DNA from: Butyrivibrio sp.
Lineage (GTDB): Bacteria > Bacillota_A > Clostridia > Lachnospirales > Lachnospiraceae
Length of the DNA: 31,062 nucleotides
Direction: 5' to 3'
NCBI GenBank assembly: GCA_024690635.1
Contig: JAILOW010000039.1
Coordinates: forward strand, 1-31,062
In this document: positions 15,480 to 28,575 of the stretch, piece after piece
Layout: the number at the start of each line of letters is the position of its first letter
How positions within the stretch are numbered: position 1 is the first letter of the stretch
The notes under the pieces: model-generated
Database searches by the model: none
Seen by the model: the letters and a program-made list of their open reading frames with translations, nothing else
What the model was told of the DNA's origin: nothing
Program-made: the position numbers and the translations under genes

Positions 15480-16811
15480 ATGATGAGATCGCTTTGGTCC
15501 GGAGTCACCGGTCTTAAAACCCATCAGTTAGAGATGGATGTCATTGGTAACAATATCGCCAATGTAAATACCACAGCATACAAAGGTCAGGCCACAGGTT
15601 TTTCGGATGTTCTTTATCAGACGGTAAAGAACGGAACCGGCGCGGGCAATAACAGAGCAACCACCAATACTTCACAGGTAGGTCTTGGTGCAAGGGTTGG
15701 CTCCATATATACCAGCATTTCCACTCAGGGATCTGCCATCGGTACAGGTAACGTACTTGATCTTATGATAAACGGAGATTCTTTCTTTGTTGCCGAGGTT
15801 GACGGTTACAACAGATTTACAAGAGACGGATCTCTTACAATAGATGAGGATGGCTTCCTTGTAACACAGAACAACGGTTACTACATCAAGGGTGTTCAGA
15901 ACGGAGAGGTTACAAACGCAGCTCCCGACAGACTTCAGGTCATCAACAGAAGAGCCATTGACTGGGACGGCGACGGAACCAATGAAAACCTTGATTATGT
16001 TCTTGGAGAAGCTACTTCCGAAGCATACTTCAAAGGAAACATAGATAAAGAAGATCCCAACCTCGAAGAGGGAAAGAACCTTAGCATCAGCGTTTTCGGA
16101 AGCGACGGAAATTCCTACACTCTCAAATTCCAGCTTACCGATGCGGGAGATGACGAGGACAATACTTACAAACTTTCACTTTCGGCTATCTATGACAAGG
16201 ATAATAATGAGGTTAAAAACGGAGCCGATATCGATATAGATCTTGTGTATGACAAGCACACAGGAAAGCTTACAAGTGCAGACGGAAATACAGACGGATT
16301 TGTGAAACTGAATTTCACAGGCGATGCAAAAAACATCGGACCTATAAATGTGAATTTCGGTCACACCACTAACTATGCGGGTTCAAGCTCAACTCATTCT
16401 TCATCCATCTACGGATACAAAGGAAATGAGGAAGGCCTTAACCAGGGATATGCAAGAGGAACACTTACCGGAATTTCGATAGATTCCAATGGAACAATCC
16501 ACGGAACATATTCCAACGGACAGACCATTGTAAAAGGACAGCTTGCGGTTGCGGAATTCAACAATGCAATGGGACTTGAGAAGATAGGTGATAACATGTA
16601 CGCGGCATCTCTTAACTCAGGAGAGCCTATCTATCAGGATGTATACAGAACCGGCGGATCCATTTCTTCAGGAGTTCTTGAGGGAAGTAACGTAAACCTT
16701 GCAAAAGAGTTTACCGATATGATTACAACACAGCGTGGTTTCCAGGCAAACAGTAAGGTTATCACAACCTCTGATGAAATGCTTCAATTACTCAAGGGAT
16801 TGAAACGCTAG
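15480..16811 (+). CDS. flgE: Flagellar hook protein FlgE
   Basis: Structural protein of the flagellar hook, exported through the flagellar secretion channel. 443 residues. The N-terminus has the rod/hook signature (RSLWSGVTGLKTHQLEMDV, then GNNIANVNTTAYKGQ). The C-terminus has the matching coiled segment (SGVLEGSNVNLAKEFTDMI, then QRGFQANSKVITTSDEML). The long variable middle (about 150-330) is surface-exposed in hooks and exceeds what a rod protein such as FlgG would have. The start is ATG at 15480, 9 bases after GGAGGT; an ATG at 15483 is possible. No other flagellar gene is adjacent, so it is a single-gene unit with its own sigma-D promoter and terminator. Confidence 0.92.
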   Translation: MMRSLWSGVTGLKTHQLEMDVIGNNIANVNTTAYKGQATGFSDVLYQTVKNGTGAGNNRATTNTSQVGLGARVGSIYTSISTQGSAIGTGNVLDLMINGDSFFVAEVDGYNRFTRDGSLTIDEDGFLVTQNNGYYIKGVQNGEVTNAAPDRLQVINRRAIDWDGDGTNENLDYVLGEATSEAYFKGNIDKEDPNLEEGKNLSISVFGSDGNSYTLKFQLTDAGDDEDNTYKLSLSAIYDKDNNEVKNGADIDIDLVYDKHTGKLTSADGNTDGFVKLNFTGDAKNIGPINVNFGHTTNYAGSSSTHSSSIYGYKGNEEGLNQGYARGTLTGISIDSNGTIHGTYSNGQTIVKGQLAVAEFNNAMGLEKIGDNMYAASLNSGEPIYQDVYRTGGSISSGVLEGSNVNLAKEFTDMITTQRGFQANSKVITTSDEMLQLLKGLKR

Positions 16812-16865
16812 TAATATTTTACGGAAACCAAAATTTTTTTAATAAAAATTGAAATTTTGTATCAC

Positions 16866-16893
16866 AGAGCTGGAGCGGTCTCCGGCTCTTTTT
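16866..16893 (+). terminator. Intrinsic terminator after flgE
   Basis: Ten-pair stem AGAGCTGGAG (16866-16875) with CTCCGGCTCT (16880-16889), a CGGT loop, then four further T residues. It ends the hook unit about 55 bases after its stop. Confidence 0.92.
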
Positions 16894-16927
16894 AATTGGA
16901 AACTAATTTTTAATTGTAAAAAAACTA

Positions 16928-16956
16928 TTGTAATATCGTTCGCTGTGTTATATATT
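16928..16956 (+). promoter_or_regulatory. Probable sigma-A promoter of the pilus operon leader
   Basis: TTGTAA (16928-16933), a 17-base spacer and TATATT (16951-16956). Transcription would start near 16963 and give a leader of about 430 nt before the first gene. Confidence 0.6.
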
Positions 16957-17038
16957 TAACTCACATTAAAGAAAGATTAAACTAAGAATTTTTTTAGGGG
17001 TTATTTTTTCATCTTGCTTTAACTAGCGAGTACTTTTT

Positions 17039-17124
17039 CAGCAGAATAAGGGCAAAGCCATTGGAAAATGGTGACGCAAAACTAAAGGGTCTTAATCACA
17101 TAAGTGACAGACAGCCAGTTGCTG
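17039..17124 (+). promoter_or_regulatory. Cyclic-di-GMP-I (GEMM) riboswitch aptamer
   Basis: The hallmark GGGCAAAGCC...GACGCAAA arrangement is present (GACGCAAA at 17073-17080). P1 pairs CAGCA (17039-17043) with TGCTG (17120-17124). P2 is CCATT (17058-17062) with AATGG (17067-17071), capped by a GGAA tetraloop of the GNRA type. P3 pairs GTCT/AGAC (17089-17092 with 17109-17112) and TCAC/GTGA (17096-17099 with 17104-17107). The conserved AGCCAG follows. This class binds the second messenger c-di-GMP. It lies in the leader of the pilus operon. Whether ligand turns expression on or off is not clear from the sequence. Confidence 0.88.
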
Positions 17125-17149
17125 GTGCTGGACGAACGGCACCATAAGG

Positions 17150-17187
17150 GACCGAGGCTGTAAACTCAAGCGACGGTCTATTTTTTT
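17150..17187 (+). terminator. Candidate expression-platform terminator after the riboswitch
   Basis: GACCG (17150-17154) pairs with CGGTC (17174-17178). An internal AG/GA (tandem sheared G-A type) step and a GCT/AGC extension continue the stem, which is followed by TATTTTTTT. A further hairpin GGTGC/GCACC (17124-17128 with 17139-17143) lies between it and the aptamer and shares base 17124 with P1. It is well placed to be the switching terminator. Confidence 0.65.
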
Positions 17188-17312
17188 GGAATTACGGTAC
17201 AGAATGTTCATGGATGAACAACAGGGCATTGAAAAATGTCAGTAGTACAAGGACAGTAATTTACAGCAACACAATTTTGCGTTTTCTTTTTCGGGGATGG
17301 TTGATATCTTAA
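17188..17312 (+). other. Structured leader stretch without a gene
   Basis: No gene is seen here. It contains TGTTCAT (17205-17211) paired with ATGAACA (17214-17220) and a GGCATT-GAAA-AATGTC tetraloop hairpin just after. It also holds a tiny reading frame (ATG at 17211) of 11 codons without a clear ribosome site. No known aptamer class was recognised in it. Confidence 0.4.
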
Positions 17313-17313
17313 G

Positions 17314-17355
17314 GCGATATCTTACGCAGGATTGTGTGAAGATATCGCTTTTTTT
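17314..17355 (+). terminator. Second terminator-like hairpin just before the first pilus-operon gene
   Basis: GCGATATCTT (17314-17323) pairs perfectly with AAGATATCGC (17339-17348). A CGCA/TGTG inner stem continues it, and seven T residues follow. It lies about 40 bases upstream of the coding start, so a transcript must pass it to reach the pilus genes. That makes it a second control point in the c-di-GMP leader. Confidence 0.8.
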
Positions 17356-17396
17356 GTAGATTTTTTAACATAAAAAGACATCAGGAAGTTGCACAC

Positions 17397-17840
17397 ATGG
17401 CAGACGTAAACTTAAAGAAACTCAGTAGAGCAGAGCTTTTGGAGATGATGATCTCATTTTCCGAAGAAGCAGACAGAGCCAGAAAACATGAAGAAGAGCT
17501 GAAAGAAGAACTTGAAAAAGAAAAGCAGCAGCTTCAGAAAGACATGGCTGAGGAAAGAGCACAGATGCTCAAGGCCTTTGATGACGAGAAGGCCGAGATG
17601 AGAGAAAAATTCGGTGCTCAGAAAAGCGAGATGCAGGCCAAGTTCGACAAGGACATAACAGGACTTAAGGCCAGACATGCAAGAGAGATGGCAGCCAAGG
17701 ACGAAGAAGTAACAAAAAAGCTTCGCGCCATCGAAAAATCGGGAACACTTGCCGAAGCGGTACTTGCCATCACAGGAATGATGGACGATGCTCAAAAGGC
17801 AATTGATCTGTATAAAGAAGAAATGAAAGAAAGACTTTGA
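17397..17840 (+). CDS. Coiled-coil protein of unknown function, first gene of pilus operon
   Basis: 147 residues, highly charged, no signal peptide or membrane segment. The N-terminus has a short motif (NLKKLSRAELLEMMISFSEE). Residues about 25-112 form a nearly continuous coiled coil rich in Glu, Lys and Gln. The C-terminal 35 residues form a less charged helical end (GTLAEAVLAITGMMDDAQKA). My recollection, not checked, is that small proteins with similar ends and a variable coil occur near signal peptidase and sortase genes in Lachnospiraceae. The start has AGGAAG 8 bases upstream. Its stop overlaps the start of the signal peptidase gene. A cytoplasmic scaffold or regulatory role is possible; no function is known to me. 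Confidence 0.8.
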   Translation: MADVNLKKLSRAELLEMMISFSEEADRARKHEEELKEELEKEKQQLQKDMAEERAQMLKAFDDEKAEMREKFGAQKSEMQAKFDKDITGLKARHAREMAAKDEEVTKKLRAIEKSGTLAEAVLAITGMMDDAQKAIDLYKEEMKERL

Positions 17841-18436
17841 TAAAGGTCATGGCAGAAGAAACAGTAAACAGCGTGGACAGACCTTCCATCGAGCAGCTTA
17901 GGAAAGAGCTCAAGAGGGTAAACAATAAAAAAGAATACAGGAAAGTCCTTAGAAACACACTGATAGTTGTGGTTGTGGTGGCGGCCCTGGCGGTTCTGGT
18001 CTCAAGCTTTTTCGTAACGGTACTAAAGGTTACGGGAGACTCAATGACTCCCACTCTTGAAACGGGAGACATAGTCATAGCACAGAACCAGAGCACATTT
18101 GAACCGGGCGATCTGCTTGCTTTCTACTACAACAACAAGGTCCTTGTTAAGAGGGTTCTGGGATCTCCGGGTGACTGGGTGAACATAGATTCCGAGGGTG
18201 ATGTATATGTAAACGGCGTTCTTGTGGAAGAGCCTTATGCTTCCGAGAAAAGCCTTGATCCCACGGATATCGAGTTTCCTTTCCAGGTTCCCGAAAACAG
18301 GTTCTTCGTTTTGGGAGACCACAGAAATGTTTCCATTGATTCAAGATCCAGCGTCGTAGGCTGTGTAACAAGAGAGCAGCTCATCGGCAAGGTGATCTTC
18401 AGGGTATATCCCTTCAATTGCTTTGGAGGTCTTTGA
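17837..18436 (+). CDS. lepB: Signal peptidase I, pilus-operon copy
   Basis: Membrane serine protease that removes signal peptides from exported proteins. 199 residues with one N-terminal transmembrane helix (about 41-62). The catalytic serine is Ser69 in TGDSMTPTL and the general-base lysine is Lys105 in LVKRVLGSPGD. The third conserved box is FVLGDHRNVSIDSRSSVVG. The start may be TTG at 17837, overlapping the upstream stop, or ATG at 17849; the site before the ATG (AAAGG) is only 2 bases away, so I favour the coupled TTG. Its place in the operon suggests it processes the pilins, as dedicated signal peptidases do in other pilus loci. Confidence 0.9.
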   Translation: MIKVMAEETVNSVDRPSIEQLRKELKRVNNKKEYRKVLRNTLIVVVVVAALAVLVSSFFVTVLKVTGDSMTPTLETGDIVIAQNQSTFEPGDLLAFYYNNKVLVKRVLGSPGDWVNIDSEGDVYVNGVLVEEPYASEKSLDPTDIEFPFQVPENRFFVLGDHRNVSIDSRSSVVGCVTREQLIGKVIFRVYPFNCFGGL

Positions 18437-18500
18437 TTTTTCAGGCCCCTTTGTGCATTGTTTTTTTGGCTTCTTTGCGCGGACATAACTTAAACGTTTT

Positions 18501-18606
18501 CGTAAATCACAATTCAAAATTGTTTTTGATTTACGGTTTCACGCTTATGATGGGTAAACGGTGTTTTACTAAAATAGAGGGTGACTTTAGAGAAGTTTTC
18601 TAAAGT
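18501..18606 (+). repeat. Two inverted repeats between lepB and the giant adhesin gene
   Basis: First hairpin: CGTAAATCACAATT (18501-18514) pairs with AATTG and TGATTTACG (18518-18522 and 18527-18535), with a four-T bulge. Second: ACTTTAGA (18584-18591) with TCTAAAGT (18599-18606). Neither is followed by a T-run, so they are not ordinary terminators. They could be processing or stability elements that set different levels for the genes on either side. Confidence 0.6.
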
Positions 18607-18642
18607 TTATGGATATTTTAGATTTAAACAGGGGAAAAAGGA

Positions 18643-21600
18643 ATGCGAAAAGTAGATGAGAATCGCGCCGAAAACTTTATAAGGAGACACAGCAATTACA
18701 AGAAATGGCTTGCTTTTGCACTGTGCGTTTCCTTACTGACAGGCACATTGACGCTGTATATGATGAATAAGCCTGCAACAGCCATGACAGAGGATGGAGC
18801 CAAGTCCGTGGGACTGGTTCTGGAAACTGCAGACGATGATTTTGAGCAGGACCTCATTGAAAAGACTATGGACAATCAGGATGATGAAGATTCAGATGAG
18901 GACTACGAGGACTCTGAGGACTACGAGGATTCCGATGAGGACAGCGATGAGGACTCAGATGACGAGGATTCCGATGAGGCGGATGACGAGGATTCTGAGG
19001 AAGCTGACGAGGCTGATTCCGAGGATTCTGAGGAAGCTGACGAGGCTGATTCCGAGGATTCCGAAGCTACAGAAGATTCTTCAGAGGATGCATCTTCTGA
19101 GATGTCTTCAGCAGCAGAAGAAAAGCTTCTTACAATGAATGTTCCCGACGCCGTAGATGTTTCCGAGTATGTTACTTCTATTGTATATGAGAGAAAGCTC
19201 CTTGACGGCAGCTGGGAGGTTATAGAAAAAGAAGATATCTGTGAGGGCGACTGGATCAGGATCACATATATGTACGATATGCCTGACACAGCAAAACTCT
19301 CCGGTGATATCAGACTGAGCGTTCCCGATGATCTTGAAATGCTCAATGTACAGAAGGCATCACTTCTTGATGGTTCAGGAAGCGCAGAGATCATAGACGG
19401 AAGCGACATTAAGATCGAATATAGGGAGGATATAAGGCAGGAGATCATAGACGATGCATCGGAAGGTTCTGACCTTCATGCATCTCTACCTGCCCGGGGA
19501 ATCTTTTCTTTTTTTAAACTTCTCTCCCCTCTGAAAGTTCATGCAGCAGGGGAAGGACTTGTGGTTGAGGGTGAAGCTCTTGTGGGAGCAAGCTCCGAAG
19601 CCGGCAGCACCACTCTTGATGCTTCATGGATCAACAAGGTTGACGGAAGATACGGCGTAGAAGAGGAGTGGAGCTCCAACGGCGGTTTTGTAGGATTCAA
19701 GGATGGCAGTGGTCAGCCTCTTACTGACGGAGCTCAGATTCCTGAAGATACTTATGTATATTTTGGTATCGACTGCACGATCCCTGCAGGAACACTTGCA
19801 GATAAGCACGGTGTAAAATATGACACCCTGGTTTACAACATAAAAGACAAGCTGGGACTTATCCCCGGACAGGATCAGTGGAATGATCTAAATGCTGCGG
19901 TATTTAGCAGATCCGAGGGTAAGAGAGTAGGAACTCTTACTATAAGTAACGGAATCGCTACTATAAAGTTTGATGAAGATTTCGTAAAGAAAAACGCCAA
20001 CAAAGAGATCGATGCAGACTTCTTCTTTGCAGGAAAAGCAAAGAAAGTAAGCAATAACGAGGGTGAAGAAAAAACCTTCTACTTTAACGATCAGATCCAG
20101 TTTGATGTAAGGATCGTAAAGGGTAAGGAATACAACCTCAAGATTGAAAAGACCAACACAGGCGTACTTGGAGAATATTCAAATCAGGTAAATTACACGA
20201 TCAAGGTTTGGTCGGATGGAAGAGACGGTTCGGGCGGACCTATCACTTTGGATGATAACTTCTCTTTCAGCAATGATGATGCAGCAAAGCTGTTCAATAA
20301 TGCTCAGATAAAAGAGATAAAGGTGGTAAGAGAAAATGGTAAGCTTGTCGGCAATGTAAATGTCCAGAAGACCGGTACCGGATACACTCTTACATTACCT
20401 GAACTTAAAAAGGGCGAATCTTATGAGATAACTTACTCTTATAAGTTTGATCAGAAGTTAAAGAATTCCGACTATGATACAGTAGTAACCAACACTGCCA
20501 GAGCTACTACCGAAAAGTTCGGAAAGGTAGAAATGCCTTCTGATTTTACTATAGAAGGTAAGCTCAAGAAGGAAACACCCGACATCAAAAAGACTTTTCT
20601 GGGTGTTGATAAAGACAAAAAGACAGTTACCTGGCAAATCGTAATAAATGAAAAGAAAGTCCAGCTCAAGGGATATACTTTAAGAGATATTCTGACAACC
20701 TGGGATAAAAACAAAGCTCAGCTCCTAGAAAATTATAAGGGAACAGCAACTATAGATCCCGCTATCAAAATAGGCGGAAAAACCACCAAAAATATTACGC
20801 TTGATGGTGATAAGGGATTTGTATTCCCGGCTACTAAAGAGAAATACACTATCACCATCACCACACCTTACGATGAGTACGAGCTTGTTGATGGAAAGTA
20901 TGTTTACAACAAAGTAACCATTACAGACGGTAAGCACTACAACGAAGATGAAGCCAAGACCGGGGACATAGGCGGAGACATCGACAAGACCAAGAAAGAA
21001 GATAAAACTGCAGAAGGATACACATTCGAAAACGGAACTATCCTCTTTAAGTGGAAGGTCGTAGCTTCAAAAGATATAACCTGTGACAGAAAAGACGAAA
21101 AAGGAAATGCCTACTTTGAATACATCGATGAGATGTCAGGCGGACAGGTTATAACAGACGCTCAGCTTAATGCTCTTAAGAAAGAGCTTGACGGCAAGGG
21201 CGTAAGATACAAGATCGAAACCGGAAACGAAGTTGTTTTAACAGGAGAAGTCAGCGTAAAAGGATATACAGACTTTAGCATCTTCTTCTACGACAAGGTA
21301 AACCAAGGCTTTACCTATTCCTATGAAACAACCGGAACCGTAAAGGGCGGCGGAGATCCCATTACTTTCAAAAATGATTCTTACATCAACAGTAAGACCT
21401 TTGAGGGATCTTCAGACAGCGTAGAGTACAAGCCAATGCTCAGCAAGTTCGACGGTAACATGCTGACGGCAGGCACTTACAACTACACAGATGATTATCT
21501 TGAAGGAGAGGGAATCCTCACCTGGATCATCAAACTTGAAATGCCCGGAGATGAAAGGGCAAATTACGGAACCTTGACAATTAAAGAGCATCTTCCCGAT

Positions 21601-23742
21601 TCTGTGACAGCTCTTTCAGAGGAAGAGGGAGGACTTGCAGTTTCCACATCCTCCGATATGTCAGGAGCAGTAAGCTTCAGCGGAGGATCCGCAAGCATAG
21701 CGGGTGCAACCTTCAGCCATGACAGCTCATCACAGGAGATCACCTTTGACGGAGATGCTATAAAGGGTCAGACACTTTACTTCAGAGTAAAGGCCAAGAT
21801 CAACGAAGACGAGATAGACGGCGGTCTTTGGAAGGATGGCTCCTACAAGAAAGTCTTTGAAAACGGAGCAGTACTTCTTGATAAAGACGGAAAAGAGATC
21901 CAGTGGGCTAAAGAAACAACAGAGATCAACCTTGTGGGCGATCTTGTTGAGAAAGATAACCTTAAGCTTAACGATCCCGAAACCATGCAGCAGGAAGTTC
22001 AGTACACTCTTGAAATTAACAAGGGCGCAGATGACCTTCTTGAGGGCGGCGATGTTCTTACACTGAAGGATACCCTGAGAGCATCCTTCGTAAAAGAAAA
22101 CTTTGATGCAAGACTCAAAGCCGACAGCATAGCCATCTACGAAGTAAACAACGAGACAAAAGAAAAGACGCCTCTTGATCCTAAAGAGTACAAGATAGCG
22201 ATCAGCGATGCTGACATAATCCTCGCAGAAGGAAATGATTACGAAGAACGCTACGTAAAGTATTGCAACATAGAGTTCAGCCTTCCCGATAAAAAGCATC
22301 TTGTTATCGAGTATACCTATGAGTTTGAAAGACTTGAAATAGCAGGCGAGATAGCAGATAAGAACAATCTTGGAAGCATTCATGTACACAACGTTGCTGT
22401 ACTTGAGGGCGTAAGCAAAGGAAAAACCTCTGACGAGACAGATGATGTGATCGTTATCTACAAGGCAGGTGCAAGCGCCGAGGTTGTTGGTGCAAACTTT
22501 GCCAAGGTAGATTCAGAGGATATTTCAAAGCTTCTTAAAGGCGGTAAGTTTGCTCTTTACAAGTATGAGGCAGGCGCAGGTGATGCTGCGGCCGATGCTT
22601 ACGGAGATATGAACTATAGACCTGTACCTCTTTTAAAGCTTGAGGATGATTCCTACAAGCCATTAGAGGAAGGAGAAGGGGACAACACCTTTACAACCAC
22701 CGCAGGAAGCTGCTCCTTTACAAGGATTCAGACTGATGTGGCATACAGGATCGTAGAGCTTGAGCATCCTGAAGGATACAAGCTTGGAGCTCCCATCTAC
22801 TTCGTATTTGAGAGTAAGGTTGGTTCTGAAAAGACACTTCCCGGGAACTTTAAGGAAAAGGGAGGAAAGACTCTTTCCCTTGGAGACAGGATTGTATATA
22901 CCAACGAAAAGAACGACACCACCAGGATACTTGTTAAGAAGGAATGGATAAATGCCGACGGTTCAAAAGAACCCATCAGCGTAAAGATATCCAGAAGAAA
23001 GTCACACATAACAAGTACCTACAAGTACTACTCGGTAAATATCTATTATCTTAAAGATAATAAGCTTGTTGAATACAAGGGATATCCTTCAGTGAGAGAC
23101 GGATCAACTGTAACGTACAACATCCCTCACTGCCTATATCAGGCAACTTACGAAAAGATCAACGGAAGCTCCAAAGAGTATGCAGGACTAAGCGGAAGCC
23201 AGAGTCCTTACGCCGAGGAAAGATCCGTAACAGTAAGTTCGGATATGAATATCATCATCACCCAGAACTGGGGAGAGTGCCCCGGATTTTCACTTGATCC
23301 GAAACTCAGATCTTCAGGAACAGTCAGCAGAGATGACGTTGAGGGTGAAGAGGATGTAGAGGAGCTTCCCGATACCTATACTCTTTCCGATGAAAACAAA
23401 TGGATGATCGAGATTAACGGCCTTCCCAAGCACTACGAAGTGGAAACAGAAGAAGAGGGAGTAAAGGTTAAGAAGAACTACGAATGGCTCTATTCTGTAA
23501 CAGAGGTTTCAACCAATGCCTTCTACGAAGTAAGCTATTCGGATAACAACGATCTGGGAATCAACTCCGGAACACTTGTTATCACCAACAAGAGAAACGA
23601 GAACATCAGCTTTACACTTCCCAAGACCGGCGGATTCGGCACACTTCCGTTTGCCTGCCTGGGACTTGGACTTACAACATCAGCAGTTCTCGGAAACGGT
23701 ATTTACAAACGCAGGAAAAAAGAGGAAGATCCTGCAGACTAA
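18643..23742 (+). CDS. Giant LPKTG surface adhesin / tip pilin with SpaA/Cna-type domains
   Basis: 1699 residues. A secretion signal has its hydrophobic core at about 22-42. Residues about 60-155 are an extreme Asp/Glu/Ser stretch. A long array of beta-sandwich (collagen-adhesin/SpaA-like) domains follows, marked by recurring segments such as KKTFLGVDKDKKTVTWQIVI and GILTWIIKLEMPGDERANYG. Near the C-terminus are a SpaA prealbumin-like domain (about 1285-1420, with YRIVELEHPEGYKLG carrying an E-box glutamate) and a Cna-B domain beginning near 1428 (RILVKKEWINADG). The sorting signal is LPKTG at 1659-1663, followed by a hydrophobic helix and KRRKK. It is probably the adhesive tip subunit of the pilus. 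GGGG lies 8 bases before the ATG. Confidence 0.9.
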   Translation: MRKVDENRAENFIRRHSNYKKWLAFALCVSLLTGTLTLYMMNKPATAMTEDGAKSVGLVLETADDDFEQDLIEKTMDNQDDEDSDEDYEDSEDYEDSDEDSDEDSDDEDSDEADDEDSEEADEADSEDSEEADEADSEDSEATEDSSEDASSEMSSAAEEKLLTMNVPDAVDVSEYVTSIVYERKLLDGSWEVIEKEDICEGDWIRITYMYDMPDTAKLSGDIRLSVPDDLEMLNVQKASLLDGSGSAEIIDGSDIKIEYREDIRQEIIDDASEGSDLHASLPARGIFSFFKLLSPLKVHAAGEGLVVEGEALVGASSEAGSTTLDASWINKVDGRYGVEEEWSSNGGFVGFKDGSGQPLTDGAQIPEDTYVYFGIDCTIPAGTLADKHGVKYDTLVYNIKDKLGLIPGQDQWNDLNAAVFSRSEGKRVGTLTISNGIATIKFDEDFVKKNANKEIDADFFFAGKAKKVSNNEGEEKTFYFNDQIQFDVRIVKGKEYNLKIEKTNTGVLGEYSNQVNYTIKVWSDGRDGSGGPITLDDNFSFSNDDAAKLFNNAQIKEIKVVRENGKLVGNVNVQKTGTGYTLTLPELKKGESYEITYSYKFDQKLKNSDYDTVVTNTARATTEKFGKVEMPSDFTIEGKLKKETPDIKKTFLGVDKDKKTVTWQIVINEKKVQLKGYTLRDILTTWDKNKAQLLENYKGTATIDPAIKIGGKTTKNITLDGDKGFVFPATKEKYTITITTPYDEYELVDGKYVYNKVTITDGKHYNEDEAKTGDIGGDIDKTKKEDKTAEGYTFENGTILFKWKVVASKDITCDRKDEKGNAYFEYIDEMSGGQVITDAQLNALKKELDGKGVRYKIETGNEVVLTGEVSVKGYTDFSIFFYDKVNQGFTYSYETTGTVKGGGDPITFKNDSYINSKTFEGSSDSVEYKPMLSKFDGNMLTAGTYNYTDDYLEGEGILTWIIKLEMPGDERANYGTLTIKEHLPDSVTALSEEEGGLAVSTSSDMSGAVSFSGGSASIAGATFSHDSSSQEITFDGDAIKGQTLYFRVKAKINEDEIDGGLWKDGSYKKVFENGAVLLDKDGKEIQWAKETTEINLVGDLVEKDNLKLNDPETMQQEVQYTLEINKGADDLLEGGDVLTLKDTLRASFVKENFDARLKADSIAIYEVNNETKEKTPLDPKEYKIAISDADIILAEGNDYEERYVKYCNIEFSLPDKKHLVIEYTYEFERLEIAGEIADKNNLGSIHVHNVAVLEGVSKGKTSDETDDVIVIYKAGASAEVVGANFAKVDSEDISKLLKGGKFALYKYEAGAGDAAADAYGDMNYRPVPLLKLEDDSYKPLEEGEGDNTFTTTAGSCSFTRIQTDVAYRIVELEHPEGYKLGAPIYFVFESKVGSEKTLPGNFKEKGGKTLSLGDRIVYTNEKNDTTRILVKKEWINADGSKEPISVKISRRKSHITSTYKYYSVNIYYLKDNKLVEYKGYPSVRDGSTVTYNIPHCLYQATYEKINGSSKEYAGLSGSQSPYAEERSVTVSSDMNIIITQNWGECPGFSLDPKLRSSGTVSRDDVEGEEDVEELPDTYTLSDENKWMIEINGLPKHYEVETEEEGVKVKKNYEWLYSVTEVSTNAFYEVSYSDNNDLGINSGTLVITNKRNENISFTLPKTGGFGTLPFACLGLGLTTSAVLGNGIYKRRKKEEDPAD
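18988..19053 (+). repeat. Perfect 33-bp tandem duplication in the acidic region
   Basis: Bases 18988-19020 and 19021-19053 are identical and encode EDSEEADEADS twice; a third, diverging partial copy follows. The frame is preserved, so copy-number change would lengthen or shorten the acidic stalk without a frameshift. Confidence 0.92.
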
Positions 23743-23812: not shown

Positions 23813-25363
23813 ATGAAGGGAATTAAGAAACTATTAACAGGTATCCTTGCAGCAACCCTTATCATGGGCATGAGCGTAACAGCTTATGCAACTGATGACA
23901 CAAACACAACAGTTAGCCAGGATCAGACTTACACACTTACTATCAACGATACAAGGACAAACCGTTCTTACGAGGCTTATCAGATCATCGTTGGTGACCT
24001 TTCAGTAAAAGGTGATGTAAAGACTCTTTCAAACATTAAGTGGGGCTCAGGTGTTGCCAAGACAGACAAGACAGTAACTGACGAAGAGATGGCAGAGCTT
24101 GAGGCACTTACAGCAGACAACGTTAGAGAGTATGCTGAGAATCTCGTACTTAGCGATACCAAGTACACAACACAGGGTGCAAGCGGCCCTTACACATTCA
24201 CAGTACCTGCAGGTTGGTACCTCGTAAAAGAGACTACAGTAACTGAGGGCGAGGATGATTTCAAGTCAGCTTTCATGATGGAAGTTGTTGGTGATGCTAC
24301 AGCATCTCCCAAGGGATCAAAGACAACAGTTGAAAAGAAGGTTCAGGATATCAACGATTCCAACACAGAGGGATATTCAGATCTTCAGGATTCAGCTGAC
24401 TACGATATCGGCGATGAGATTCCTTACACACTTACAGCTACAATCGGAAGTGACCTTACATATTTTGATGAGTACTACATCCAGTTCGTGGATGAAATGT
24501 CAGCTGGTCTTACATATGTTGATATCGACAAGCTCACTGTTGACGGAGCAGAGAAGTCAACAGACAACGTAGCAGTTGAGACAACCGGAAACATAACAAC
24601 ATTTACAATTGCAAACATTCTTGATCCTGCAGTAGGAGCAGGCGAGGGCAGCACAATCGTTATCAATTACAGAGCAAAGCTCAACGAGAATGCTATCATC
24701 GGTAAGGCTGGTAACCCCAACACAGTATATCTTGAGTACTCCAACAACCCTCACACAGATGAGAGAGGAAAGACTCCTGAAGATAAGAACATCGTATTTA
24801 CTTACAAAGTAGTAGTTAACAAGGTCGATGGCGATCTGAATCCTCTTGCAGGCGCAGGATTTACTCTTTACAAGCAGGTTACAGAAGATTACGACGGAGA
24901 CAAGGAAGTTAAGACAGGTGCAGCTATAAAGGCAGCTATCACAAATCCTTCAGTAAAGGCTGATGAACTTAAGGACGATGCTCTTTACATCGAGCTTACA
25001 ACTGTAGTACTTAACGCAAACGGCGACAGCTTCGGAATGAACGGTGTTGACGATGGCACATACGTACTTGTAGAGACAACTATCCCTGAGGGATATAACG
25101 CTTGGGATTCCAAGGAGTTCATCGTAAGCGCAGAGCACAGCCAGGATCCTGCAGAGCTTACTCTTACATCACTTGATGGCGGCGACCTCTTTACAGGAAG
25201 CATCGACGAAGGATCACTTACAACAGACATCATCAACACATCAGGTCTTGTTCTTCCTTCAACAGGTGGTATCGGAACAACAATCTTTTACATCATCGGT
25301 GCGGTTCTTATCGTAGCTGGTGTAGCTTACTTCATCGTTCGCAGAAAGGCTAACGCTGAGTAA
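23813..25363 (+). CDS. Major pilin, SpaA isopeptide-forming type, LPSTG-anchored
   Basis: 516 residues. The signal peptide (about 1-26) ends with TAYA. Two or three beta-sandwich domains of the SpaA/isopeptide kind follow. The pilin region reads SPKGSK near 165-170 followed by TVEKKV; Lys167 or the following EKK lysines would be the polymerisation site, since the classical YPKN motif is absent. An E-box is present in YVLVETTIPEGYN. The sorting signal LPSTG is at 481-485, followed by a membrane helix and RRKANAE. The ribosome site (AAGGAGAGG) is strong, fitting a highly made subunit. The adjacent class C sortase is expected to polymerise it. Confidence 0.92.
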   Translation: MKGIKKLLTGILAATLIMGMSVTAYATDDTNTTVSQDQTYTLTINDTRTNRSYEAYQIIVGDLSVKGDVKTLSNIKWGSGVAKTDKTVTDEEMAELEALTADNVREYAENLVLSDTKYTTQGASGPYTFTVPAGWYLVKETTVTEGEDDFKSAFMMEVVGDATASPKGSKTTVEKKVQDINDSNTEGYSDLQDSADYDIGDEIPYTLTATIGSDLTYFDEYYIQFVDEMSAGLTYVDIDKLTVDGAEKSTDNVAVETTGNITTFTIANILDPAVGAGEGSTIVINYRAKLNENAIIGKAGNPNTVYLEYSNNPHTDERGKTPEDKNIVFTYKVVVNKVDGDLNPLAGAGFTLYKQVTEDYDGDKEVKTGAAIKAAITNPSVKADELKDDALYIELTTVVLNANGDSFGMNGVDDGTYVLVETTIPEGYNAWDSKEFIVSAEHSQDPAELTLTSLDGGDLFTGSIDEGSLTTDIINTSGLVLPSTGGIGTTIFYIIGAVLIVAGVAYFIVRRKANAE

Positions 25364-25401: not shown

Positions 25402-25465
25402 GAATCTTGTTATTATAGAAACAGATCTGCATCCCCGGTTAGTCCCGGGGATGCGGATAAGATTC
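25402..25465 (+). repeat. Long nested hairpin between major pilin and sortase genes
   Basis: Outer stem GAATCTT (25402-25408) with AAGATTC (25459-25465). Inner stem GCATCCCCGG (25429-25438) with CCGGGGATGC (25445-25454), perfect and GC-rich. No T-run follows, so it is not a standard terminator. It may protect the pilin message or partly stop read-through to the sortase. Confidence 0.75.
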
Positions 25466-25498: not shown

Positions 25499-26347
25499 AT
25501 GAAGAAAAAAAGCGGGCTGATAAAACAGCTCCCCAATATAATATTTGGACTGATATTTCTGGCAGGACTTGCGATATTTCTTTATCCGTCGGTCAGCAAT
25601 TATATCAACTCCAAAAATCAAAGCAGGACCATCACATCCTATACAGACAGTCTTGCAAAACTGACTCCCGAAGACTACACGGCTCTTTGGGATGCAGCAA
25701 AAGAATTTAACGATGATCTTTATCACTCTTCGAACTTTATGCATCTTAATGATGAGCAGAAGAGTAAATACTATAAAGCCATGGATCCCACCGGAAACGG
25801 TGTCATGGGCTATATTGAAATCGAAAATATCGGAGTAAGCCTTCCTATTTATCACGGAACGGACGAATCGGTGCTTCAGGTGGGGATCGGACATCTTGAA
25901 GGTTCATCATTTCCTACGGGAACACCAAACTCTCATGCGATACTCTCGGGTCACAGAGGTCTTCCCTCTGCCAAGCTCTTTTCAGACCTGGATCAGATGA
26001 TCGTGGGAGATACATTTTTACTGCACATACTGGATCAGACCTTTGCTTATCAGGTGGATGATATAAATATCGTTCTTCCGGAGCAGACCGGTTCACTTAT
26101 GATCCATAATGGAGAAGACTATGTCACGCTTGTAACATGTACGCCTTATGGTGTAAATACCCACAGGCTTCTTGTCAGGGCAAAGCGTGTTGACTATAAC
26201 GCAGAAACGAGGCTTATCGTACCTGCTGATGCGATCAGGTACAGCCCCATGGTGGTAGCTCCTTTTATCGGAGCACCTCTACTTCTTTTAGCATTTATCA
26301 TTTTCCTTTATCTCACCAAGAGACCCAAGAAGGAAAAAGTTAAATAA
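25499..26347 (+). CDS. Class C (pilin-polymerising) sortase
   Basis: Membrane transpeptidase that joins pilin subunits. 282 residues: N-terminal membrane helix (about 10-30), catalytic domain, and a C-terminal membrane helix (about 248-272), the two-helix layout of class C. Catalytic residues are His152 in LSGHRG, Cys214 in TLVTCTPYG and Arg223 in NTHRLLVR. The lid region includes DPTGNG near 96-101, a variant of the DPW/DPF lid. The ribosome site is weak (only AGAG before the ATG), so it is probably made at a much lower level than the pilin upstream. Confidence 0.95.
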   Translation: MKKKSGLIKQLPNIIFGLIFLAGLAIFLYPSVSNYINSKNQSRTITSYTDSLAKLTPEDYTALWDAAKEFNDDLYHSSNFMHLNDEQKSKYYKAMDPTGNGVMGYIEIENIGVSLPIYHGTDESVLQVGIGHLEGSSFPTGTPNSHAILSGHRGLPSAKLFSDLDQMIVGDTFLLHILDQTFAYQVDDINIVLPEQTGSLMIHNGEDYVTLVTCTPYGVNTHRLLVRAKRVDYNAETRLIVPADAIRYSPMVVAPFIGAPLLLLAFIIFLYLTKRPKKEKVK

Positions 26348-26360
26348 TGAGGGAAAGTTT

Positions 26361-27440
26361 ATGAACAAGGTTAGAAAGTTACTAAACCGCATATGGGCTT
26401 TGGCGACGGTAGTACTGCTCACCTTAGGATGTATGTCTTTTACATCCCAGGCAAGGCAGCCCATCGACCTTAGTCAGAAAGGCAAGATGACCATACTCTA
26501 CAGCTTTGACGGAGCGCCTCTTAAGGGCATGCAGGTGCACGCATACAGAGTTGCAAGTATATCGGAGTCAGGCAGGTTCACACTTCTTGATCCTTATGCA
26601 GGCATCATCGATACCGATATCAACAAGATCAAAGAGCAGAGCCAGTGGGATCCCGTTACGGAAAAGCTTGAGTCATACGTATACACCAAGAAAGTGTCAT
26701 CAACAGCTGATACTGCAACCAATGACGACGGAGAAGCACTTTTTGATGGTATTGAACTTGGTCTTTACCTGATTATCTCGGATCCTCTTGAGGACAAAGA
26801 GAATGCCTGTGTTTATACGGTTAAGACATTCCTTATATGCGTACCGGGACTTGATGAAAACGACGAGTGGGTAAATCCCGTTTATTCTGTGGTTGCCAAG
26901 GTAAAATGCGAAAAGAATCCTCTTGAGACCGATTACAAGATCCGCAAGGTTTGGAAGGATTCGGGCTATACCAAGTACAGACCCGGAAACATAACCGTTG
27001 AGATCTTCTGCGACGGCGAGCATTTTGAGACAGTAACACTTGGAAGAGACAATGACTGGTCCTACTCCTGGACATATATGCCGGGACACAAGTGGACCTT
27101 CAAGGAAACAGTAGATTCAAAGATCAAATACAAGGTTAAGGTAACTGCCAACGGAAGAGAGTACACCATGACCAACGGATACAATCCTCCGCCCGACAAT
27201 CCACCTGACAACCCGCCGGATAATCCACCTGATAACCCGCCGGAAAATCCCCCCGGAACTCCCAATATCTTTTCGGAGCTTCCTGAGGTACTCGGAGCTG
27301 TAAGAAATCTTCCCGCAGTACTTGGTGCAAGAAGACTTCCTCAGACTGGTCAGCTCTGGTGGCCGCTTCCGATCCTTGTGATCGCAGGAGTATTCTTTAT
27401 CATAAAGGGTGTTAGAAAAAACAGTAAGAATAAAGCGTAA
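26361..27440 (+). CDS. Minor/base pilin with Cna-B domain and proline-rich tail, LPQTG-anchored
   Basis: 359 residues. The signal peptide (about 1-31, ending TSQA) precedes a beta domain of about 150 residues and a Cna-B-type domain at about 193-262 (RKVWKDSGY... FKETVD with the E-box glutamate). Residues about 275-301 are a DNPP repeat, then come a spacer and LPQTG at 326-330 with a hydrophobic tail. A proline-rich segment before the sorting signal is typical of base pilins that are attached last and link the fibre to the cell wall. The gene starts 14 bases after the sortase gene and is the last of the operon. Confidence 0.9.
   Translation: MNKVRKLLNRIWALATVVLLTLGCMSFTSQARQPIDLSQKGKMTILYSFDGAPLKGMQVHAYRVASISESGRFTLLDPYAGIIDTDINKIKEQSQWDPVTEKLESYVYTKKVSSTADTATNDDGEALFDGIELGLYLIISDPLEDKENACVYTVKTFLICVPGLDENDEWVNPVYSVVAKVKCEKNPLETDYKIRKVWKDSGYTKYRPGNITVEIFCDGEHFETVTLGRDNDWSYSWTYMPGHKWTFKETVDSKIKYKVKVTANGREYTMTNGYNPPPDNPPDNPPDNPPDNPPENPPGTPNIFSELPEVLGAVRNLPAVLGARRLPQTGQLWWPLPILVIAGVFFIIKGVRKNSKNKA
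27195..27242 (+). repeat. 24-bp tandem repeat encoding DNPPDNPP
   Basis: Unit 27195-27218 is repeated at 27219-27242 with two C-to-T differences, both silent (GAC/GAT). It builds the proline-rich stalk of the base pilin. Confidence 0.9.
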
Positions 27441-27559: not shown

Positions 27560-27802
27560 ATGATCTACAAAACAAAGGGAACCTGCTCGACACAAATCGA
27601 CATAGAGCTTGAGGGAGATGTTATAAAGAGCGTTGCGTTTACAAACGGCTGCAACGGCAATCTTCAGGGCATCTCAAAGCTCGTTGAGGGCATGAAGTGC
27701 GATGATGCCATTAGTAAGCTTCGCGGCATCAAATGCGGATTTAAGAGTACTTCCTGTCCCGATCAGCTGTCCTATGCTATCGAGGCAGCCATGAACCAGT
27801 AA
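27560..27802 (+). CDS. TSCPD-domain protein (TIGR03905-like)
   Basis: A small 80-residue protein made almost entirely of the TSCPD domain, which is otherwise found at the end of some B12-dependent ribonucleotide reductases. The signature TSCPDQL is near residues 62-68, and other cysteines (TKGTCSTQ, NGCNGNL, KCGF) are spaced as in the stand-alone family. It may bind a metal; its function is unknown. It has a good ribosome site and is followed after 17 bases by a sortase gene. Confidence 0.9.
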   Translation: MIYKTKGTCSTQIDIELEGDVIKSVAFTNGCNGNLQGISKLVEGMKCDDAISKLRGIKCGFKSTSCPDQLSYAIEAAMNQ

Positions 27803-27819: not shown

Positions 27820-28470
27820 TTGAAAAAGATATCAGGATACATTTATATCGTAATAGGTGTAGCACTTATAGTTATTGCAGCTCTTATAGTAAAGAACAAT
27901 ATGGATGAAAATTCTTCTGCAGGAAAGGCTTCAGATGAGTTCCTGGCGGAGGTTATTTCCCAGATGCCGGATACTGTGGCGGCCTTTGATGAATCAGGCC
28001 CCATGCCCATAGTGGATGTTGACGGCAGGAGTTTTGTGGGTACCGTGCAGATCCCTTCTCTGGGACTTCTTTTACCCATCCAGGATGAGTGGAGCAAGGA
28101 CAATGCCAGAGTATCTGTCTGCAGATACATGGGATCCGTTTATGACAATGACCTTATAGTCTGCGGGCATAACTATGTGGAGCACTTCGGCACCTTAAAA
28201 GATCTTGAGACCGGAGCGGAAGTCATAGTAACCGACATGAACGGCAAGAGCTTTTACTTTGAGGTTGCCAATATCGAGACCCTCGGAGCTTACGATTCAG
28301 AGGAAATGGAAGCGGGAGAATGGGATTTTACCATGTTTACCTGCACCGTTGGTGGAGCAAACCGTGTGACCGTCAGATGTGAATCCACAGGCAAGGTAAG
28401 CGAGACAGGAACCCAGCCCGACGTTATAAAAGCCGCAAAGGAGAGCAAGCACATCAGAAAGCAAAACTAA
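27820..28470 (+). CDS. Second sortase, single membrane anchor (possible housekeeping/anchoring sortase)
   Basis: 216 residues. One N-terminal membrane helix (about 6-25) and no C-terminal one, unlike the class C enzyme upstream. Catalytic residues are His117 in VCGHNY, Cys175 in MFTCTVGG and Arg182 in GANRVTV. The size and the single anchor fit a class B/D/E-like or housekeeping enzyme; I cannot assign the class. The start is TTG at 27820, with AAGGCAGG about 9 bases upstream and MKKISGYIYI following. Next to a pilus locus it could attach finished pili, through the base pilin's LPQTG, to the cell wall. Confidence 0.9.
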   Translation: MKKISGYIYIVIGVALIVIAALIVKNNMDENSSAGKASDEFLAEVISQMPDTVAAFDESGPMPIVDVDGRSFVGTVQIPSLGLLLPIQDEWSKDNARVSVCRYMGSVYDNDLIVCGHNYVEHFGTLKDLETGAEVIVTDMNGKSFYFEVANIETLGAYDSEEMEAGEWDFTMFTCTVGGANRVTVRCESTGKVSETGTQPDVIKAAKESKHIRKQN

Positions 28471-28532: not shown

Positions 28533-28559
28533 TTAGCACTCTCGAATGGACAGTGCTAA
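28533..28559 (+). promoter_or_regulatory. CIRCE element (HrcA operator)
   Basis: TTAGCACTC (28533-28541), nine bases, then CAGTGCTAA (28551-28559). This matches the CIRCE consensus TTAGCACTC-N9-GAGTGCTAA at 17 of 18 positions. It should bind the heat-shock repressor HrcA. The usual targets are groESL and hrcA-dnaK; here it stands before mecA. Confidence 0.93.
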
Positions 28560-28575
28560 TGTAACGTATTATAAT
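28547..28575 (+). promoter_or_regulatory. Sigma-A promoter overlapping CIRCE
   Basis: TGGACA (28547-28552), exactly 17 bases, then a perfect TATAAT (28570-28575). The -35 sits on the 3' half of CIRCE, so HrcA binding would block polymerase directly. Confidence 0.8.

Follow-up and report, generated by a model that had tools for sequence, protein, structure and literature searches.

The locus analyzed computationally here, a stretch of 31,062 nucleotides from a Butyrivibrio sp. contig (hereafter the window), raises the question of whether the assembly of covalent surface fibres is placed under c-di-GMP control by a riboswitch in a long operon leader and, if so, in which direction such a switch would act. 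The leader, which like the operon is read on the + strand, contains a c-di-GMP-I (GEMM-I) aptamer, two intrinsic terminators, a covarying element with AnGGA sites and a stretch complementary to the aptamer; it is followed by a pilus operon, and the arrangement is conserved. The feature is real and richer than first noted: the initial annotation recognized the aptamer and the terminators, which stand, and missed the CsrA-like module and the anti-aptamer stretch. On balance, the leader is probably a two-input transcription-attenuation region that combines the c-di-GMP aptamer, the two terminators and the CsrA-like element and that would be ON at the second terminator.

Promoter, Aptamer, and Terminators of the Leader

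A terminator-like hairpin (16866-16889) follows a flagellar hook/rod-type gene and precedes the putative leader promoter (16928-16956), which consists of a -35-like TTGTAA, a 17-nt spacer and a -10 TATATT and on whose 3' side the transcript is expected to start, near position 16963. In the consensus scan by which it was found, this promoter is by itself not above chance (1 promoter-like match on 16790-18700 vs. 2.8 expected); its TTG and TATATATT, with variants, are in register across 33 aligned leaders. Further 5' of the -35 (16895-16935 in the window), relatives have a common GGAAACTGTG...TGTGAAAAA that is degenerate in the window. This region is made up of direct TGTG repeats spaced by about one helical turn, as for an unknown activator site or an UP element.

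The covariance-model search with RF01051, which had been proposed as a check of the aptamer, bears it out at positions 17041-17126, 2 nt off from the 17039-17124 given earlier. The match covers the full model (1-87) with 67.7 bits, against a gathering score of 35, and an E-value of 2e-11. It is the sole Rfam match above gathering within the window, and nothing credible besides GEMM-I was found on the leader at lax E-values. As read from the RF01051 structure line, the P1 strands are placed in the segments X1 (17073-17087) and X2 (17113-17125). The predicted aptamer would be expected to bind c-di-GMP. Another hairpin, H4, is predicted by folding 3' of the aptamer (17123-17144); the sequence of its stem varies among the leaders while, by eye, complementarity is kept. 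The fold of 16960-17400 as a whole is stabler than those of 100 out of 100 dinucleotide shuffles (z = -4.85).

Where one or two terminators had been noted, two hairpins with T-runs are found downstream of the aptamer, the position expected for the expression platform of a GEMM-I riboswitch: T1 (17149-17187; GGACCG...CGGTCT followed by seven Ts, hairpin of -13.3 kcal) and T2 (17311-17355; hairpin of -21.0 kcal). Both come from the sequence and a hairpin search, and a simple terminator scan lists neither of them.

The Pilus Operon

The operon comprises eight genes rather than the six first counted. The first gene (17397-17840) encodes a 147-aa coiled-coil protein with no Pfam or NCBIfam match and is followed by genes for a signal peptidase I (17837-18436; PF10502, 6e-34; TIGR02227), an LPKTG-anchored adhesin of 1699 aa whose collagen-binding-domain match is under its cut-off (18643-23742), a backbone pilin of the SpaH/EbpB family with LPSTG (23813-25363; PF16569; NF033902, 97.2 bits vs. 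95), a class C (pilin) sortase (25499-26347; PF04203; NF033745, 2.2e-76, 256.4 bits vs. 160), a Cna-B minor pilin with LPQTG (26361-27440; PF05738), a TSCPD-domain protein (27560-27802; PF12637) and a second sortase (27820-28470; PF04203, 5.7e-12), after which mecA comes next. From these genes, which include both an LPXTG backbone pilin and a class C sortase, a sortase-assembled pilus is predicted. The TSCPD gene is present in the equivalent place in 3 of 51 relatives (L014, L017, and L020). For both the signal peptidase and the coiled-coil protein, wherever an organism is named among the 120 relatives listed, it is Butyrivibrio.

Several other features were observed at the operon. The N-terminus of the coiled-coil protein is strongly conserved around LKKLSRAELLEMMI, and its relatives, found by tblastn, lie beside pilus signal peptidases outside Butyrivibrio too (L058, L061, L069, and L077). 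Between the backbone pilin and sortase genes is a strong hairpin, GCATCCCCGG..CCGGGGATGC (25429-25454), which has no T-run on the + strand and may protect or tune the pilin mRNA. A CIRCE-like inverted repeat, TTAGCACTC...AGTGCTAA (28533-28559), which we take to be an HrcA operator, lies just 5' of mecA and overlaps a strong promoter-like pair (28547-28575), an overlap that suggests putative heat-shock control of MecA.

As an alternative, the leader might be a small RNA that terminates at T1 or T2, the pilus genes having another promoter. The two strong terminators fit this alternative, as do two weak terminator-like sites within the signal peptidase gene (on 16790-18700, 4 such sites were found vs. 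1.2 expected), but the simple consensus scan gave no second promoter-like match on 16957-18700, the operon itself shows no excess over chance of promoter-like matches (17 vs. 16.3 expected) or of terminator-like ones (8 vs. 7.9), and the switch features would be without a target. We regard a free-standing small RNA as very improbable.

Conservation of the Aptamer-Operon Arrangement

Loci were collected by a scan with a signal peptidase alignment, the best 80 of at least 493 matches being used (L001-L080); 51 of these are Butyrivibrio-like (L001-L051), two of them named just Lachnospiraceae. Among these best 80 loci, 41 of the 51 Butyrivibrio-like relatives carry the aptamer core 192-598 nt 5' of the coiled-coil gene, a core being counted if its distance to this gene did not exceed 900 nt. 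RF01051 scores above gathering were confirmed by script for 40 of the 41 and by hand for the other (L013), for which the script had picked a wrong core. The search for the same aptamer before pilus operons of related genomes, also proposed earlier, thus turned out positive, and the pairing of a GEMM-I aptamer with a sortase-pilus operon that carries a signal peptidase gene is conserved in Butyrivibrio. A chance GEMM match is ruled out by the 67.7 bits in the window together with this recurrence.

In four of the 41 (L038, L046, L049, and L050), the aptamer is found at two places, the second being that at which three further relatives (L040, L042, and L051) have their sole aptamer, about 6.5 kb upstream and before a giant LPXTG-type adhesin gene. 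The adhesins encoded behind these distal GEMM cores, which sit some 6-6.6 kb ahead of the pilus operon, are 1.8-2.1 thousand residues long. Seven of the 51 relatives are without the aptamer (L011, L037, L041, L044, L045, L047, and L048, with L041 cut by a contig end). The aptamer-less leaders of L011 and L037 (9300-9550) retain, by eye, T2 and an antiterminator, with other hairpins upstream; neither has an Rfam match above gathering, and L037 also has nothing credible at a lax E-value.

A pattern scan of the other 29 loci (L052-L080), many of them short-flanked, gave one aptamer, in a Blautia MAG (L077:6535-6628; RF01051, 53.6 bits), which directly precedes an operon of sortase, FctA-type pilin, sortase and signal peptidase. 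It is possibly an independent recruitment of GEMM-I to another sortase-pilus operon. More widely, GEMM-I is present in 58 of 150 genomes drawn from the same family. From 40 GEMM neighbourhoods of relatives, ten first genes were scanned with a crude picking rule (the core pattern missed in 11 of the 40 stretches), and they include those for a chemotaxis receptor, a glycosyltransferase/cellulose synthase with PilZ, a protein with a type IV pilin-like N-terminus, a BspA-type repeat protein and the upstream adhesin of L042. All ten genomes searched for GGDEF gave between 29 and 59 matches each.

A Conserved Element with CsrA-Like Sites between the Terminators

Between T1 and T2 lies a conserved element, motif 2 (17186-17266). 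It is composed of an outer stem (17186-17195/17256-17266), GUAC segments (17197-17200/17245-17248), a variable hairpin (17225-17240) and two CsrA-like sites, of which site 1 is the hairpin GUUC-AUGGAU-GAAC with an AnGGAn hexaloop (17206-17219) and site 2, located 39 nt after site 1, is UAC-AAGGA (17246-17253). The site rule, an AnGGAn hexaloop hairpin after T1 and then UAC(n)GGA within about 60 nt, is passed by 31 of 42 leaders (41 relatives and the window) and failed by 11, among which L038, L046, L049, and L050 are also without a convincing T2. AnGGAn hexaloop hairpins occur in 32 of the 42 leaders and dual sites in 30, where dinucleotide shuffles of the same leaders would give 1.4 and 0.5, respectively. 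One CsrA dimer can reach between GGA sites 10-63 nt apart, and the second GGA of the window lies within this reach.

Twenty-four of the 31 leaders were aligned over motif 2 (L007 and six whose site 2 carries an additional base were left out), and GU.C of GUAC, UCAnGGAnGA and UACAnGGA are invariant among them. Compensatory changes are found in 2 of the 4 stem pairs of site 1, and RNAalifold, given a MAFFT alignment of the element, recovered just this 4-pair stem. The outer stem was tested by partner swapping because the 3' flank of motif 2 aligns poorly, and it covaries across the 31 leaders (own partners -6.63 vs. swapped -4.14 kcal on average, permutation p = 0.0002). No Rfam family matches motif 2. 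A model built from the alignment retrieved all seven leaders held out of it; in 21 genomes, with scoring applied to 150 out of 950-1865 first-look candidates in each, all ten matches at E <= 1e-6 were the pilus leader, and the next match (E = 0.004, in G030) resembles, by eye, a gene end.

CsrA-family sites are described with an ANGGAN hexaloop, and the hag leader carries two of them (PMC7652899, available part). The relatives have the corresponding protein: csrA was found in 47 of 50 genomes, and in all 20 genomes searched for fliW this gene lies next to csrA (45-202 bases between the domain matches). The one CsrA read through, from L081, is extended at its C-terminus and has L4 and R44, residues with roles in CsrA. 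A correlation of csrA absence with motif 2 loss was considered and set aside: the three genomes without a match (G006, G019, and G044) are MAG records and decide nothing, and a gene this nearly universal in the set offers no contrast against which motif 2 could be compared.

Flagellin leaders of the same group provide a comparison. Of 30 flagellin loci, 16 matched a flagellin-start pattern, with 22 entries that reduce to 20 distinct starts after removal of two repeats (L095/L109); 12 of these starts (7 genomes) begin MVVQHN. All 12 MVVQHN leaders have an AnGGA over the Shine-Dalgarno sequence, 14-16 nt before the ATG, and another at 33-38 nt. The upstream one is in a fully paired AnGGAn hexaloop in six leaders and has 2 or 3 of 4 stem pairs in the other six. 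No such AnGGA pair was found before the other eight flagellin starts, six having one AnGGA hairpin 87-106 nt upstream (L090 with a further one at -4) and two none. The GGA spacing is 30-42 nt in the pilus leaders vs. about 21 nt in the flagellin leaders, a difference that counts against the CsrA reading.

Motif 2 may instead be an unrecognized aptamer, be bound by some other protein or serve in RNA processing. Its outer stem and invariant GUAC exceed the needs of two CsrA hairpins, site 2 is in an asymmetric bulge of the proposed structure rather than in a hexaloop, and in L035 and L039, both outside the 24-leader alignment, site 2 is UGGGA. Set against these points, the AnGGAn loop, the free N positions and the covarying stem reproduce the published CsrA grammar (PMC7652899, as far as the available part gives it), and the same form is seen in the flagellin leaders of seven of these genomes. 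A motif 2 that is not a CsrA target is in our judgement unlikely. Sequence grammar, covariation and the flagellin comparison all argue that CsrA would bind the predicted motif 2 sites; this candidate link to CsrA is the strongest new idea on the leader.

Possible Alternative Pairings at the Two Terminators

The 50-80 nt between motif 2 and T2 contain a stretch (17264-17282 in the window) with complementarity in two directions. Its first part, Y (CAGCAAC, 17264-17270), complements GUUGCUG in X2, and its second part, A (CACAAUUUUGCGU, 17270-17282), complements ACGCAAAA in X1 and also, in 13 bp with G-U pairs, the segment B (17324-17336), which is common to T2 and to the antiterminator A:B. The arms of T2, whose position was set by hand for L008 and L023, covary (p = 0.0002). 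A compensatory change in L043, with CCAGCUGC in the aptamer and GCAGUUGG downstream, supports the X2 pairing.

Because the leaders are related by descent, the tests on this stretch are not independent and their p values overstate independence: compared with shuffles, its complementarity is at p <= 0.05 to X1 in 23, to X2 in 11 and to the left arm of T2 in 15 of 35 leaders (the 42 less L004, L016, L030, L038, L046, L049, and L050), and own against swapped partners, in the 31 leaders passing the site rule, give p = 0.0014 for X1 and p = 0.048 for X2, with no covariation beyond the common sequence for A:B (p = 0.22). Under the same restriction, in pairing ensembles of transcripts ending before the right arm of T2 (the same 31 leaders), aptamer-to-stretch pairs number 15.7 with the real vs. 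5.2 with the shuffled stretch (Wilcoxon p = 4.7e-9), the p values of single leaders being modest (<= 0.05 in 9 of 31), and antiterminator pairs 6.7 vs. 4.3 (p = 0.004; single leaders, 4 of 31). When the aptamer is forced to form, 18 of 30 leaders gain more than one A:B pair and 5 lose A:B pairing; in the window, antiterminator pairs rise from 4.2 to 7.4, and 28.9 aptamer-to-stretch pairs are present when the aptamer is free. The row for L013 used the wrong GGCGCAAA as core in the complementarity, swap and ensemble tests and is absent from the forced-aptamer test. As the ligand-bound aptamer would free the antiterminator, T2 is read as ON.

T1 has a possible alternative pairing of its own, since GGCUGU in its left arm (17156-17161) is complementary to ACAGCC in X2. 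T1 can also form alongside the folded aptamer and is present in the predicted ligand-free fold, so that the ON model leaves T1 unexplained. A plain OFF riboswitch at T1 is one rival explanation: the bound aptamer would hold X2 so that T1 forms, free X2 would permit read-through, and T2 and motif 2 would be separate matters. Consistent with such a switch, the GGCUGU segment is by eye retained in the close relatives of the window while its partner in T1 is not, the X2:T1 duplexes of 20 leaders range between -7.5 and -16.7 kcal (own vs. swapped p = 0.043), the forced T1 antiterminator with X2 is the stabler state in 7 of 38 leaders, and the C. difficile switches of class I are reportedly OFF (PMC6200980, available part). 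However, the duplex is at p <= 0.05 vs. shuffles in just 4 of those 20 leaders (20 of 35 were kept, T1 having been missed by the pattern in the other 15), the forced antiterminator is less stable than T1 by 2.1-24.4 kcal in 31 of the 38 (3.7 in the window), and the anti-aptamer stretch after T1 would be left unexplained. These forced-fold energies cover 38 of the 42 leaders, with no value for L031, L032, L034, and L035, and for these four and L015 the T1 hairpin finder returned other hairpins. The T1 antiterminator was rejected as the main switch, being weak by energies, shuffles and swaps, and we consider a plain OFF riboswitch at T1 rather unlikely.

Both terminators could also respond, T1 being OFF and T2 ON with c-di-GMP, which would yield maximal output at an intermediate level of the ligand. 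Both alternative pairings use X2, and the Bc1 GEMM-I leader, with two terminators, is described as showing incoherent regulation (PMC11218506, available part), but such a band-pass depends on the weak T1 antiterminator, and we hold it to be improbable.

Proposed Mechanism

Based on these results, we propose a model of attenuation chiefly at T2, in which the GEMM-I aptamer would sense c-di-GMP and T1 and T2 would guard the pilus operon. The segment A may pair with the left arm of T2 (B), forming the antiterminator, or, together with Y, with both P1 strands of the aptamer. With c-di-GMP bound, P1 would be shut, A would be free and T2 would be blocked (ON); with the aptamer empty, Y and A would invade P1, B would pair with the right arm of T2 and T2 would stop the transcript (OFF). 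Motif 2 would offer a CsrA dimer two AnGGA sites, through which the flagellar FliW-CsrA partner switch could also act on the leader. For T2 the ON sign, like the part played by T1, is inferred, and because T1 is possibly OFF while T2 would be ON, we do not claim a net sign for the effect of c-di-GMP. The earlier suggestion of a GEMM riboswitch in the leader of a sortase-pilus operon is supported; as to its sign (more pili at high c-di-GMP), the anatomy of T2 points to ON and T1 weakly to OFF.

A bolder version, which we regard as possible but somewhat unlikely, is that the nascent RNA itself computes the decision to swim or settle: the aptamer and the FliW-CsrA element between the terminators, connected by the anti-aptamer wiring, would jointly license the covalent pilus, perhaps only within a window of c-di-GMP levels and when flagellin is not backing up. 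If the proposed model is true, the leader would be a compact natural two-input RNA gate that brings two well-known motility signals, c-di-GMP and the flagellar FliW-CsrA checkpoint, to bear on an adhesion operon of a rumen genus; CsrA in Gram-positive bacteria would reach past flagellin homeostasis to surface fibres, and the attachment decision of rumen bacteria would gain testable sequence handles.

Comparison with Known Systems

The initial annotation knew of no GEMM riboswitch described before a sortase-assembled pilus operon that includes a signal peptidase. For a pilus operon as the target, no case was found in open-access titles and abstract openings, a range that leaves most subscription journals outside, and the same search gave none in which a c-di-GMP riboswitch is joined to CsrA sites. 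The novelty is nevertheless weaker than first claimed, since sortase-dependent surface proteins are in print as targets: class II c-di-GMP riboswitches of C. difficile precede genes of such proteins (PMC6200980), and the class I switch Bc2 of B. thuringiensis precedes the LPXTG collagen adhesin gene cap (PMC4933901), according to the available parts of both reports.

Bc2 is similar to the leader described here in that a GEMM-I aptamer precedes a gene for a sortase-anchored LPXTG adhesin and the bound RNA forms an antiterminator (ON), but in the available part of the report it controls a single adhesin gene with one terminator, and no CsrA element is mentioned (PMC4933901). Bc1 of the B. cereus group likewise has a long expression platform with two intrinsic terminators; these are 28 bp apart as given in the available part, whereas 123 nt, with a structured element between, separate the end of T1 from the start of T2 in the window (PMC11218506). 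In C. difficile, c-di-GMP riboswitches govern flagella, type IV pili and sortase-dependent adhesins, but there class II controls both the adhesins and the type IV pili and class I is reported as OFF, and the accessible portion of that report mentions no sortase-assembled pilus operon (PMC6200980).

The CsrA-like element resembles hag of B. subtilis in that the leader has two CsrA sites, the ANGGAN hexaloop is a CsrA-family site and FliW antagonizes CsrA; at hag the ribosome is blocked, whereas in the pilus leader the sites lie between two terminators and far from the start codon (PMC7652899, available part). In moaA of E. coli, a riboswitch aptamer and CsrA also meet on one leader, but the aptamer is that for Moco, the CsrA sites are within the aptamer and control is translational (PMC7652899, available part). 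The pilus leader, if the proposed model is true, would join moaA as a further leader under both a riboswitch and CsrA; its riboswitch belongs to a known class, but stands in a new architecture and before a target that we have not found described.
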